From contig PCTW01000084.1 in NCBI GenBank assembly GCA_002786715.1, forward strand, positions 124,001-188,000: DNA of 64,000 nucleotides. Direction: 5' to 3'. Position 1 is the first letter of the stretch, and each line of letters opens with the position of its first letter. The notes under the pieces are model-generated. The model was not told the DNA's origin. It ran no database searches and saw only the letters and a list, made by a program, of their open reading frames with translations. The translations under genes and the position numbers were made by a program. Positions 49,127 to 59,768 of this stretch are shown here, piece by piece. The DNA is from Bdellovibrio sp. CG22_combo_CG10-13_8_21_14_all_39_27 (GTDB lineage Bacteria; Bdellovibrionota; Bacteriovoracia; Bacteriovoracales; Bacteriovoracaceae).

Positions 49127-49462
49127 TTATTGTGAGTCGCGCATTTTTGTTGTGCCGTGGAAGATTACTCCTTCCTCGACAATTAGACTCGGGGCGGTAA
49201 TAGTTCCTTCAAATCGTGCAGGGCGTATAATCTCAACTCTTGAACTTGCCTTCACATTGCCTTTAACGGTACCTGAAATCAAAATAACATCTGCGTTAAT
49301 ATCGGCATTAACCACTGCACCTTCAGAAACGATCACAGTATCGTTTGAAAAAATACTACCGTTTACTATGCCCGCTATGCGCGCAACGCCTGTAAAGGAT
49401 AAATTTCCCTCAAAGCGGCAGCCTTCTTCGATGATTGCTGAAATTTCACCACGATTTTCCAC
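49127..49462 (-). CDS. Bactofilin
   Basis: The 111-residue protein is one of the small beta-helix cytoskeletal proteins (DUF583): GCRFEGNLSFTGVARIAGIVNGSI, NADVILISGTVKGNV and ARFEGTITAPSLIVEEGVIFHG make up the repeating strand pattern. Bactofilins form filaments for cell shape or chromosome positioning, and often sit next to parAB; in Myxococcus they carry ParABS. Start GTG, with AAGGAA before it. The repeat element at 49476-49491 lies between the ribosome site and parB. Confidence 0.9.
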   Translation of the reverse strand: MENRGEISAIIEEGCRFEGNLSFTGVARIAGIVNGSIFSNDTVIVSEGAVVNADINADVILISGTVKGNVKASSRVEIIRPARFEGTITAPSLIVEEGVIFHGTTKMRDSQ

Positions 49463-49475
49463 TAGATTCCTTCCC

Positions 49476-49491
49476 TGGTCCTATAGAACCA
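49476..49491 (-). repeat. Single copy of the 16-bp near-palindrome (inverted relative to mnmE copies)
   Basis: On the minus strand this reads TGGTTCTATAGGACCA, identical in all 16 bases to the four copies in mnmE. It is in the 30-base spacer between the parB stop (49495-49493) and the bactofilin start (49462), and follows A-rich sequence as in mnmE. It could be an operator for bactofilin or a structural site. Confidence 0.9.
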
Positions 49492-49492
49492 C

Positions 49493-50398
49493 TTATTTTT
49501 TTAACAAAAATTCATAGATATCGTTAAATTCTGCTTCATTGTTGAATTTAATCGTAATCGCGCCACTTCCATTATTTTTTGATTTCAAATTAAAGTGATA
49601 GCCAGTTGTTTGTTCTAACTTTTGACGAAACTGATCTAGTTTGTCGTCAAGAAATGTTAGACGAGCCTTGGTCTTTGATCTTGATTTACCTTTTTTGGCC
49701 AGTTCCTCTGTCTCGCGAACTGATAATTGCTTTTGGGCAGCCTCGCTTGCGAGATTAATAACTAAGTCGCGATCTTGAATGGCCGCTAAGACTTTTGCGT
49801 GTCCGAATGACAGCAAATCCTTTTGAATAAGCTCAATCACAACTCTTGGGAGTTTTAACACTCTCAAAAAGTTAGCAATGGTTGATCTCTCTTTTCCGAT
49901 TTTCTTTGCAACTTCTTCTTGAGTTAGTTTGAATTCTTCCATTAATTGATAATAGGCAAGAGCCTCTTCAATACAATTAAGGTCAGAGCGTTGAACGTTT
50001 TCGATGATGGCCATAACCATCTTTTCTCTGTCTGTGGCTCTTTTTAAAATAGCTGGAACTTGAGTTAATCCTGCTTTCTTGGCAGCACGAAGTCTTCTCT
50101 CTCCCGCAATTAATTCAAATCCATCTTCATCTTTTATAACGATGAGTGGTTGGATAATTCCATTCTCTTTGATTGATTCAGAAAGTTCTTCTAACTCTTT
50201 TTCTTTAAATATTTTTCTTGGTTGATGAGAGTTCATTCTGATTGATGCAATATCAATCATCAAAGCATTACCATCAGCCAGCATTTCTTTTTTCGGTTTT
50301 TCTTCTAGTTTCGCCTTAATCGCAGCTTGTTGAGCAGCCACTGGAGTGTCTTGTATGAGAGAGGCTATTCCTTTTCCTAATTTAACTTGAGTTGCCAT
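49493..50398 (-). CDS. parB: Chromosome partitioning protein ParB (CTPase)
   Basis: Loads at parS and spreads as a clamp. The 301-residue protein has an N-terminal ParA-contact region with LGKGIASLI, MIDIASIRMNSHQPRK, the GERRLRAAKKAGL CTP-binding box, ENVQRSDLNCIEEALAYYQLM and an HTH LTQEEVAKKIGKERSTIANFLRVLKLP. A C-terminal dimer domain follows. It overlaps nothing, but lies 17 bases after parA. Confidence 0.97.
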   Translation of the reverse strand: MATQVKLGKGIASLIQDTPVAAQQAAIKAKLEEKPKKEMLADGNALMIDIASIRMNSHQPRKIFKEKELEELSESIKENGIIQPLIVIKDEDGFELIAGERRLRAAKKAGLTQVPAILKRATDREKMVMAIIENVQRSDLNCIEEALAYYQLMEEFKLTQEEVAKKIGKERSTIANFLRVLKLPRVVIELIQKDLLSFGHAKVLAAIQDRDLVINLASEAAQKQLSVRETEELAKKGKSRSKTKARLTFLDDKLDQFRQKLEQTTGYHFNLKSKNNGSGAITIKFNNEAEFNDIYEFLLKK

Positions 50399-50414: not shown

Positions 50415-51224
50415 TTATAAAGTCGCTACGTTTTCAGAATCTCCAGCATCTACAATCTCTCTTTCTTTTAAGATCACTTCTTTTGCGAGAGATAAATAAG
50501 CCTCACTACCCTTTGATTCAATATCATAAAGAATAATTGGCTTACCAAAACTTGGAGACTCAGAAAGCTTAACGTTTCTTGGTATAATTGTTTCAAAAAC
50601 CTTGTCTGAAAAATGAGTCCTAATTTCATCACAAACTTGCTTGTGTAAACTTGTTCTCGCATCAAACATAGTAAGAACAATCCCATCCATCTTTAAATTG
50701 GGATTCAGAGATCCACGAACAAGACGAACAGTGTTTAAGAGTTGGGCCAAGCCTTCCATCGCAAAATATTCTGTCTGCAACGGAACGATAAAACTATTTG
50801 CAGAATTGAGTGCATTTAACGTTAAAAGTCCTAGCGATGGAGGACAGTCTATAATGATGTAATCGTATTTATCTTGAATAGTAGCGAGCGCGTTCTTTAA
50901 CTTTGATTCTCTAGCTATAACACTTACCAATTCAATTTCTGCGCCAATGAGATTGCTGTCAGCTGGGCACACATCAAAGTAGGGAAGTTCTGTATTGTAA
51001 ATTGCTTCACTAATATCAATCTCGCCAATGAGGGCGTGATAGATATTTTTATCAGCGTACTTCTCTCTCGCTAGTCCGACACCTGTTGACGCATTGCCCT
51101 GGGGATCAAGGTCCAATAACAGAGTTCTTTTCTCAGCTACTGCTAAGCAAGCTGCTAGATTTATTGAGGTTGTCGTTTTACCAACGCCACCTTTCTGATT
51201 AGTTAATGCAATGATTTTAGCCAT
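50415..51224 (-). CDS. parA: Chromosome partitioning ATPase ParA (Soj)
   Basis: Binds DNA nonspecifically and moves ParB-parS. The 269-residue protein has the deviant Walker A KGGVGKTTTSINLA, the Walker B IIIDCPPSLGLLTLNAL, and LDLDPQGNASTG. GGAGT precedes the ATG. It is coupled by short spacing with parB; rsmG lies upstream in the same direction. Confidence 0.98.
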   Translation of the reverse strand: MAKIIALTNQKGGVGKTTTSINLAACLAVAEKRTLLLDLDPQGNASTGVGLAREKYADKNIYHALIGEIDISEAIYNTELPYFDVCPADSNLIGAEIELVSVIARESKLKNALATIQDKYDYIIIDCPPSLGLLTLNALNSANSFIVPLQTEYFAMEGLAQLLNTVRLVRGSLNPNLKMDGIVLTMFDARTSLHKQVCDEIRTHFSDKVFETIIPRNVKLSESPSFGKPIILYDIESKGSEAYLSLAKEVILKEREIVDAGDSENVATL

Positions 51225-51260: not shown

Positions 51261-51908
51261 TCAATCTATTTCGGCTACTTTGACAACGATTTTATTTTTA
51301 TTTTTCTTTGTTCCACGTGGAACATTTCGTGAGAATTTATAAAGAAAAATGGCCCTTTGGTTATCTTCAATACCAAAGTTTTTTTCAAGAATAAGCTCGG
51401 AACCATTGATTTTCTTAGGAACATCCTCGAGCTCATAAGTCTTAGGCCCCTTATAGAAAACCACCCAGACTTCACTTTTCTGCGAGACATTCATCATCTC
51501 AAGTAAGTCTTTAATAGGTCCAACCGCTTTGAAGGTAACGATACAATCGCGATCAATTTGGACTTCTTCAAGACGAGCATGAAAACATTTAACGTTAGAT
51601 AGGCCAACTCTTTGAGCAATGGTTTGGACAGCAGAAGCCTTCTTCCCTCTTGCGTCTATTCCAATGATCTTTTTTTCAGGAAAGATCTTGGCTAAAGGAA
51701 TTAAAGGAAATCCTCCTCCGAAGCCAACATCTATTATCAATTTGGCATCTTTTGCGATCTCAGCCAGCTCAGGAAGATTCTGAAAGGGATATAATGAGTC
51801 AATGATCTGTTTATCATAAAACCCTGAAGGCTCAGTTATTCGAGTAAGATTCAACCCCGCAAACTCACCAGTATAATAAGATAAAAGATTATCTGAAAAC
51901 TCTCTCAT
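51261..51908 (-). CDS. rsmG: 16S rRNA (guanine527-N7)-methyltransferase
   Basis: The 215-residue SAM-dependent enzyme has [22 protein letters not shown], the SAM motif, [14 protein letters not shown] in the form [21 protein letters not shown] and VTFKAVGPI. The ATG overlaps the mnmG stop (ATGA). The C-terminal codons contain a perfect parS. Confidence 0.93.
51309..51324. promoter_or_regulatory. parS site 1 (within rsmG)
   Basis: TGTTCCACGTGGAACA, a perfect 16-bp palindrome and the universal parS sequence for ParB. It lies in the coding region near the end of rsmG, about 0.9 kb from parB. Confidence 0.97.
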
Positions 51909-53692: not shown

Positions 53693-53708
53693 TGTTCCAC
53701 GTGGAACA
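53693..53708. promoter_or_regulatory. parS site 2 (upstream of mnmG)
   Basis: TGTTCCACGTGGAACA, the second perfect parS. It ends 13 bases ahead of the mnmG ATG at 53680 and lies between mnmE and mnmG, so ParB loading here might affect mnmG transcription. Confidence 0.97.
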
Positions 53709-53778: not shown

Positions 53779-55215
53779 CTATTTTCCAATGCAAAAGTTA
53801 GAAAAGAGGTTGTTAAGGACATCATCAGCCGACACAAGACCTACCAAAGCCTCGATTTTTGACCCTAAGATATTGATTTCATTTGAGCATATGAGAATAT
53901 CAGAGTAAATCATTTTTATATCCATATTATTTATTGAGTCGTTAATTGCCTTGATGGCTGCCTGCTGGCGTGGAACCAAAATTGGATCGTTTCCTAGGGC
54001 ACTATCTAATTTTTGCGAGATGAGATTAAAAAACAGTGAAAGTGGTTCTATAGGACCAGAAGCAAAAACTGGTTCTATAGGACCAGTAAAAAAAAGTGGT
54101 TCTATAGGACCAAAAAAAAGTGGTTCTATAGGACCACGGCTTAAAAAGAGTGGCTTTTTTTGCTGTGAAATGAACTCTAAAAAAGTCGATTTTGAGAGTG
54201 TAGAACCAATAAATTTGTCGAAGTGTGTGATGACGAAACAGTCGACAGAGTGGGCGCTTAAAAGGTGCAAAAAATGGTCATCATAATCAAGCGGATTGAT
54301 GACAGCTATCTTGAAAAACGCCTCTCTATATTGCTCAAAAGAACGCTCAATCCCCTGCTTTTCAATGGCATTTTGAGACTCTCTAATCCCTGCCGTATCA
54401 ATTAAATTAAAAAGTCGATGCTCGATTTGTAATGTCTCACTGACGTAATCGCGTGTTGTGCCAGCCTCTGAACTTACAATCGAGCGTTCATGGCCCAATA
54501 AATAATTGAAAAAGGTACTTTTGCCGGAATTTGGTGTGCCAAAGAGCACAATGGATGGACTTAATAATGAACGAGATTGATATGTTACTCGAGAATGAAG
54601 ATTATCAATAAGTTTTTTGAGATGCGAAAACTGTGATAGCGCCTTTTCCTGAGTTTCAACTTCTCCGACATCCTCAGAAAAATCGATAAGAAGCTCCACT
54701 AAGATTCTCAGCTTAATAAATTCTTCACGAAGCGTGAGATAACAAGAGTGAATAGTACCGTTTAATCCCTTAAGGCCAAGCTCAACTCCTTGGAGGCTCT
54801 TGCTGGTTAAAAGCATATCAAGAGATTCAACTTGAGAGAGGTCCATTTTTTTATTTTTTAGCGCACGATAAGTAAACTCCCCGGGTTGGGCCAAGCGACA
54901 GGAATAGTGATCACAAAAAAATTCAATAATGCGATCAACATTAATAGGATTTCCGTGAACACTAAGTTCTAAAATATTCTCGCCAGTGTAACTATGTGGA
55001 GCTTGGAAAAAAGTCGCAACGACTTCATCCAGAAGTTTATCTTTATCAAGCAGCGCAACCAATGAAGCCACACGCGGTTTTAAGCTATCCAGCTTCTTAG
55101 AAAAAGATGAATTAAAATCAGAAATATTTTTGAAACCCGAAATTCTAATGACAGCTAAAGCTGCGCTCCCCTCTCCCGTGCTTTTGGCAATTATTGGTCC
55201 AGGGGAAAACATCAT
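53779..55215 (-). CDS. mnmE: tRNA modification GTPase MnmE, with repeat insertion in the G domain
   Basis: Product of 478 residues (usual about 455). The N-terminal folate-binding and helical domains are normal (AVIRISGF, PHSYTGEN and PGEFTYRALKNKKMDL). In the G domain, G1 GTPNSGKS (226-233) and G3 DTAG (273-276) are intact. G4 reads THFD (330-333) instead of NKxD, and G5 is replaced by four GPIEP repeats (361-392), which are the 16-bp DNA repeat. The C-terminal CIGK is intact. It may have altered nucleotide specificity. Overlap with yidC is TAATG. Confidence 0.93.
   Translation of the reverse strand: MMFSPGPIIAKSTGEGSAALAVIRISGFKNISDFNSSFSKKLDSLKPRVASLVALLDKDKLLDEVVATFFQAPHSYTGENILELSVHGNPINVDRIIEFFCDHYSCRLAQPGEFTYRALKNKKMDLSQVESLDMLLTSKSLQGVELGLKGLNGTIHSCYLTLREEFIKLRILVELLIDFSEDVGEVETQEKALSQFSHLKKLIDNLHSRVTYQSRSLLSPSIVLFGTPNSGKSTFFNYLLGHERSIVSSEAGTTRDYVSETLQIEHRLFNLIDTAGIRESQNAIEKQGIERSFEQYREAFFKIAVINPLDYDDHFLHLLSAHSVDCFVITHFDKFIGSTLSKSTFLEFISQQKKPLFLSRGPIEPLFFGPIEPLFFTGPIEPVFASGPIEPLSLFFNLISQKLDSALGNDPILVPRQQAAIKAINDSINNMDIKMIYSDILICSNEINILGSKIEALVGLVSADDVLNNLFSNFCIGK
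54043..54136 (-). repeat. Four tandem copies of a 16-bp near-palindrome inside mnmE
   Basis: On the plus strand TGGTTCTATAGGACCA occurs at 54043-54058, 54070-54085, 54097-54112 and 54121-54136, all 16 bases identical, with 11, 11 and 8-base A-rich spacers. It is nearly self-complementary around TATA (one mismatched pair). Every unit is in frame with mnmE and codes for GPIEP. Confidence 0.95.
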
Positions 55216-59206: not shown

Positions 59207-59768
59207 TAACGCGTAATGTTTTCAATTTTTTGACAAACTCCCTGTAATTCACAAAAGACACAGGAAAAGTGAATAATCATTCGCTTATCCACTCTTTATC
59301 CACATTCTAAGGCTTTAGAGTGAAATGCTTTTTATTAACAAAAACCTTTATCCACAATAACTTGTGAATGTGGATGGGATAAATGGTGGAAAAACTTTAT
59401 TAACAGTCAAAGTTATCCACATTGTGAATAAAAAAGTGAATAAAGTGGTGCAGAAAAACATCTAAGAGAGAATATACGTCATATAAAAAGAGAGATGTGG
59501 ATTAAAAGTGGGAAATTAAAAAGTTATCCCCTAAATGAAAATATTTACACGTAATATCCGCAACGATGGCGCATAAGGCTAGTAGTTATACCCCTTTCAT
59601 CCAACTCCTAAAAATGAATCAACTATATGAAATTAATGATGAAAACAAGTTATCCCCGCAATCCACAGGTATAATAATAATAGTATTTAAATATATATAT
59701 AATATATATAAAGAAACTTGTTCAGATAGAGACTTGATTTACTCAATCCATGAAGCTAAATCTTTAGC
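59207..59768. other. Replication origin (oriC) between dnaA and dnaN
   Basis: This 562-bp gap has no gene I accept. DnaA boxes: perfect TTATCCACA at 59296-59304, 59348-59356 and 59413-59421 (plus strand) and TTATTCACA at 59423-59431 (minus strand). Close matches are TTATCCACT 59285-59293 and, on the minus strand, TTATTCACT at 59268-59276 and 59435-59443 and TAATCCACA at 59496-59504; TAATTCACA 59245-59253 is on the plus strand. The AT-rich unwinding element follows at 59670-59713. The gene order fits. Confidence 0.9.
59670..59713. other. AT-rich DNA-unwinding element
   Basis: A stretch made almost only of A and T (44 bases; TATAATAATAATAG, then TATTTAAATATATATA). It lies on the dnaN side of the DnaA boxes, where helix opening is expected. 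Two partial boxes (TTATCCCCG and AATCCACA) lie just before it. Confidence 0.65.

Follow-up and report, generated by a model that had tools for sequence, protein, structure and literature searches.

What does a 16-bp sequence, TGGTCCTATAGAACCA, do in the short spacer between parB and a bactofilin gene, when mnmE, in the same window (the whole stretch of DNA analysed, 64,000 nucleotides), carries four more copies of it? The spacer measures 30 bp from the parB stop to the bactofilin start, and the element within it is the reverse complement of all four mnmE copies at 16/16 positions, confirming the original prediction of an exact fifth copy, oppositely oriented and in non-coding DNA. Because the site is a near-perfect palindrome, pairing at 7 of 8 positions, the label "inverted" carries little meaning for the spacer copy; the two orientations differ at 2 bases only. 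The window holds five sites in total even with 3 mismatches allowed, and the 4.08-Mb genome (97 contigs) has no exact copies beyond these five, all 5/5 of which fall within 4.7 kb; at up to two mismatches three extra imperfect places appear, all on other contigs. Chance would supply about 0.002 copies of one given 16-mer per genome, and 7e-9 in the spacer, if bases were uniform. The A-rich flank that had been pointed out is real, but flanks are A/T-rich on both sides of the sites across the family, and the A/T run beside the spacer copy is the Lys-Lys-stop end of parB.

Table 1. Features of the window that bear on the 16-bp site
Feature	Position	Strand	Remark
Bactofilin	49127..49462	-	neighbour of spacer site
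16-bp site TGGTCCTATAGAACCA	49476..49491	.	parB-bactofilin spacer
parB (ParB1)	49493..50398	-	keeps parS-reading helix GKERSTIAN
parA (ParA1)	50415..51224	-	
Canonical parS TGTTCCACGTGGAACA	51309..51324	.	end of rsmG
Canonical parS TGTTCCACGTGGAACA	53693..53708	.	between mnmG and mnmE
mnmE, host gene of array	53779..55215	-	
Site copy in mnmE (TGGTTCTATAGGACCA)	54043..54058	.	
Site copy in mnmE	54070..54085	.	
Site copy in mnmE	54097..54112	.	
Site copy in mnmE	54121..54136	.	
In-frame MnmE insert GPIEPLFFGPIEPLFFTGPIEPVFASGPIEP encoded by site array	54043..54136	-	translation
Probable oriC, four DnaA boxes TTATNCACA	59296..59431	.	between dnaA and dnaN

The neighbourhood is that of the chromosome origin, marked by dnaA, dnaN, rpmH, rnpA, yidC, mnmE, mnmG, rsmG, parA, parB, bactofilin and atp genes and by a GC-skew sign change around 56-60 kb of the window. 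Its two parS matches, each with 2 mismatches to TGTTTCACGTGAAACA, are identical over 16 bp to the Bdellovibrio bacteriovorus parS printed in PMC10547168. We rejected TGGTCCTATAGAACCA itself as a canonical parS: it does not match TGTTYCACGTGRAACA within 3 mismatches, and the parS matches fall elsewhere.

The mnmE copies are spaced 27, 27 and 24 bp apart, each a multiple of three, and relatives carry 3-11 in-frame copies in most loci. Such regularity could be read as selection for a GPIEP peptide in MnmE with a coincidental spacer copy, and nearly all mnmE copies do lie in one frame (171/175 across 35 loci); this preference arises because the second frame gives a TAG stop and the third WSYRT. 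Several observations speak for the DNA instead: 25 copies sit in non-coding parB-bactofilin spacers, the DNA motif is present in 142/143 GPIEP-like pentapeptides of MnmE, and one identical 15-mer encodes GPIEP in 70/75 cases, against 1.2% expected from background codon use. Local duplicates and related species are among these counts, and p-values drawn from them are therefore not independent-event probabilities. Inverted sites encode GSIGP (24 cases) instead of GPIEP (75 cases), and AlphaFold2 places the insert between the G domain and the C-terminal helices, with residues 353-389 at pLDDT < 50 and devoid of secondary structure, a predicted disordered loop. Selection acts on the DNA and not on the peptide, because inversion alters the peptide, codon choice stays fixed and the insert is predicted to be disordered; the claim that the motif is a DNA element rather than a peptide signature is borne out, and the probability that we leave to peptide selection is practically nil. 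Nor does MnmE need the array, since it is absent from MnmE of one genus of the family (g5) and of other families. In one genome two contigs end inside a palindrome array of 24-bp period (G009:C7:18-249 and G009:C18:18-153), where the assembly probably broke at mnmE.

How far the element extends was computed, at up to one mismatch, for 241 near-complete Bdellovibrionota genomes, 77 from the window's family (Bacteriovoracaceae-type, with members named Bacteriovoracaceae, Halobacteriovoraceae or Bacteriovoracia) and 164 from others. From what is generally known of the named genera, the family is largely predatory. Sites occur in 75/77 family genomes and in 10/164 others, where the single matches resemble the control pattern and are at chance level. 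The two exceptions, G004 and G069, both belong to g5: the weight matrix finds five weaker sites in G004 at 61.6-72.5 kb of its contig, around parB at 65.4 kb, and one further site at 112.9 kb (reversed control, 0), and G069 shows a single weak one, in the region of parA. G222, a genome in a single contig, has 7 weight-matrix matches at 247.1-253.4 kb (6.3 kb), beside parB at 246.3 kb, and no further match in the surrounding 100 kb (control, 0); all 3/3 of its strict sites genome-wide fall around the origin. Almost all of 32 relatives' loci fetched via parB contain the palindrome or close variants, with a weight-matrix half-site of T-G-G/C-T/C-C/T-C-T/c-A and a family consensus, which we call parS2, of TGSYYCYATRGRRSCA. 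An origin-restricted, family-wide DNA element is thus well supported, and it has the sequence layout broadly expected of a ParB-type centromere, a 16-bp inverted repeat in several copies near oriC.

Where the sites sit around the origin bears on several other readings. Across 35 loci spanning mnmE to bactofilin, with one mismatch allowed, 171 sites fall in mnmE, 25 in parB-bactofilin spacers, 11 in mnmG-parA (120 kb) and 3 downstream (169 kb). The spacer copy recurs in relatives, 1-4 sites being present in each of 18/35 complete loci; as these spacers total 2.2 kb, site density per kb is 11.5 there, 3.5 in mnmE, 0.09 in mnmG-parA and 0.02 downstream. Other relatives hold sites in yidC, mnmG, parB or the spacer after atpC. 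In genera with scattered, non-arrayed sites, copies recur just after atpC (L246 12475 and 12534; L257 1599 and 1647; L259 11216; L260 101; L261 8542-9473).

The suggestion that the element controls bactofilin found no support: about half of the loci lack a spacer site, most sites lie in coding sequence and not in promoters, and the site sets shift among mnmE, yidC, mnmG, parB, the parB spacer and the atpC spacer, always around the origin. A transcription-factor operator or an RNA hairpin controlling bactofilin or parAB is accordingly very unlikely, even though the spacer copy immediately precedes the bactofilin start and some variants could form a short RNA stem; up to 11 copies stand in arrays within coding DNA, and the commonest sense form, that of GPIEP, has a C-A mismatch in the stem, the better-pairing GSIGP form being rarer. 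As a terminator the spacer copy was rejected, no T-run following the site in the operon direction. We give hardly any credence to a REP- or RPE-like palindromic repeat, selfish or mobile, whose expansion in mnmE was happenstance: tandem copies 27 or 30 bp apart do betray local duplication, but mobile repeats disperse while these sites stay around parAB, and divergent half-sites retain their symmetry. Rather unlikely, too, is a role as boundary or roadblock sites that limit the sliding of ParB1 from the two parS sites. It draws on the 196 sites that flank the parS pair, in mnmE and, at the opposite end, in the parB spacer, versus 11 in mnmG-parA; yet coding constraint in mnmG may account for that gap, several genomes have sites within mnmG-parA itself, in yidC or beyond atpC, and some protein must bind the site anyway.

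A candidate for that protein is a second ParB-type protein, ParB2, found in each of twelve family genomes searched and, in the full set, in 76/77 family genomes at 50-68% identity. In the sole apparent exception, G026, a ParA2 fragment stops at the contig edge where ParB2 should follow. Outside the family, three matches near 2e-21 reach 30-33% identity, and nothing there is comparable to ParB2. The gene lies directly downstream of one for a 257-aa ParA-type ATPase, ParA2, in 13/13 loci resolved by a simple text pattern that did not pick out four further loci; coordinates place the two side by side in G222 and G004 as well. Where both are on one contig, the pair lies 323-391 kb from the parB locus (G007, G014, G052); in G222 the distance is about 368 kb around the circle, if that contig is a closed chromosome. 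Among the ParA2 matches listed outside the family, the best are ordinary ParA proteins at 31-34% identity. In the window's own genome the pair occupies G000:C82:220474-222150 (L211 6475-8154). By a look at the sequence its neighbourhood is conserved, with genes that probably encode quinolinate synthase and cysteine desulfurase upstream and glutamate dehydrogenase downstream. That genome also encodes a third ParB-type protein (G000:C22:15680-15943; L105), on a contig where ParA-type matches lie close by; it is perhaps part of a mobile or plasmid-derived element.

ParA2-ParB2 has the make-up of a ParABS pair: an adjacent Walker ATPase gene, and in ParB2 the ParB N-terminal (CTP-binding) domain (ParB_N, 4e-15), a GERRxRA box, present as GERR[FY]RA, and an HTH, whose HTH_ParB score of 21.7 bits lies just under the 22.6 cut-off. 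At its N-terminus ParB2 has a basic [AS]K.FA[AP]R stretch and not the ParB1-type motif LGKGI, and coupling to a ParA would therefore need another motif. Its closest PDB match is Noc (6e-19), also the closest in NCBIfam, at 103 bits against the model TIGR04285, a score that leaves it outside Noc, for which the cut-off is 315. Compared with the list of parS contact residues in PMC7383237, ParB2 has the helix GISKSEVHR and the block EKYVLL in place of the contacting residues, with I171 for the K of parS readers, K173 for R, R178 for N, Y201 for G and L204 for R; positions here were assigned by motif and not by number, in an alignment with Caulobacter and Noc sequences in which the Caulobacter numbering was off. 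The window's ParB1 keeps the parS contact set, except for Lys at 204. Nor does ParB2 carry the NBS-reading set Q173/K179/K184/R201, having K173, S/C/G179, K/R184 and Y201. Given these substitutions at the contact positions, ParB2 would be expected to recognise a sequence other than parS; the palindromes are somewhat more likely than not its target.

Half-site choice follows residue 179 of ParB2 (VHRC versus VHRS/G) loosely, possibly as a clade effect: TGCC/TGCT-type half-sites make up 28/64 in Cys179 genomes and 19/168 otherwise, a tally in which the simple pattern misread residue 179 in some sequences and G009 counts as Cys by alignment. G016 (Ser179), which also uses TGCC-type half-sites more, is a counterexample to the trend.

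The chief competing possibility is that the sites bind another family-specific protein (an origin anchor, an SMC loader or unloader, a regulator of replication initiation) and that ParA2-ParB2 carries unrelated cargo. The site distribution says only that this is an origin-specific binding site. Site and ParB2 are confined to one clade, and their co-distribution therefore counts as one evolutionary event. Furthermore, the palindrome has no copy at the parA2B2 locus. Against this possibility, the length and symmetry of the site fit the ParB/Noc type (the palindrome is 16 bp long, as are parS and NBS), and the altered ParB2 recognition helix has no other known target, just as a search around its own locus turned up no different palindrome shared between genomes. 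We consider another reader unlikely, though worth keeping in view.

The reading that we favor, and think probably right, is that the palindromes and ParA2-ParB2 make up a second, orthogonal ParABS-like system at the same origin, so that the link with chromosome segregation hinted at in the original prediction offers the best account of origin-bound sites. Under this proposal, the parS2 palindromes would act next to the ordinary parS sites as a second cluster of centromere-like kind; ParB2, probably a CTP clamp as other members of the ParB/Noc group are, would load at them and slide over the origin region; and ParA2 would move or position ParB2. Sites would accumulate where they are tolerated near oriC, in the disordered MnmE loop and in short spacers, among them that between parB and bactofilin, because they are needed near oriC while almost all DNA there is coding. 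Genus g5 counts against the proposal, as it keeps ParB2 yet has weak and scattered sites; loss of ParB2, present there, was rejected as the cause of that weakness. The looseness of the residue-179 trend and the missing LGKGI motif weigh on the same side.

Known systems offer partial parallels. Like chromosomal ParABS, the proposed system combines a ParA-ParB pair with 16-bp palindromes in several places near oriC, partly in genes; unlike it, the half-site is TGGTYCTA rather than the TGTTYCAC of parS, the sites are additional to normal parS and form dense in-frame tandem arrays, and ParA2-ParB2 is encoded some 320-390 kb away. As a candidate reader, ParB2 resembles Noc of Bacillus, a paralogue of ParB whose recognition residues have changed and which has a 16-bp palindrome, NBS, of its own. 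NBS occurs all over the chromosome, whereas the sites described here are confined to the origin, and to our knowledge Noc has no ParA of its own, whereas ParB2 has a dedicated one directly upstream. With the parS clusters of plasmids and chromids (repABC, Burkholderiales) the proposed system shares a distinct parS sequence per ParB and several systems per cell; there, each system serves its own replicon, in contrast to a site placed at the same origin as the normal parS. As far as we know, bacterial chromosomes use one ParABS system per replicon. Our search of the literature on Bacteriovorax parS or a second ParABS found nothing relevant. In B. bacteriovorus, the loading of ParB at parS is blocked in attack phase by a predator-specific factor that acts via flanking DNA (PMC10547168), making extra origin-bound proteins plausible in such bacteria. 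Our scan did not turn up the palindrome in the Bdellovibrionota families examined beyond its own, and it is therefore not the site of the B. bacteriovorus factor as such.

Whatever reads it, the element is a clear case of an array of DNA-binding sites housed in protein-coding sequence via a disordered loop. If ParB2 proves to be its reader, the two would give imaging tools a new pairing of a ParB with its specific DNA site. The fuller proposition, in which two complete orthogonal ParA-ParB-parS systems share one origin, the second centromere consists mostly of in-frame mnmE repeats and the arrangement may serve a switch between growth and attack phases, strikes us as evenly balanced. Were it true, a second ParA-ParB pair with its own origin sites, conserved family-wide, would represent a new layer of origin handling and might explain the change of centromere state that related predators make between growth and attack phases.
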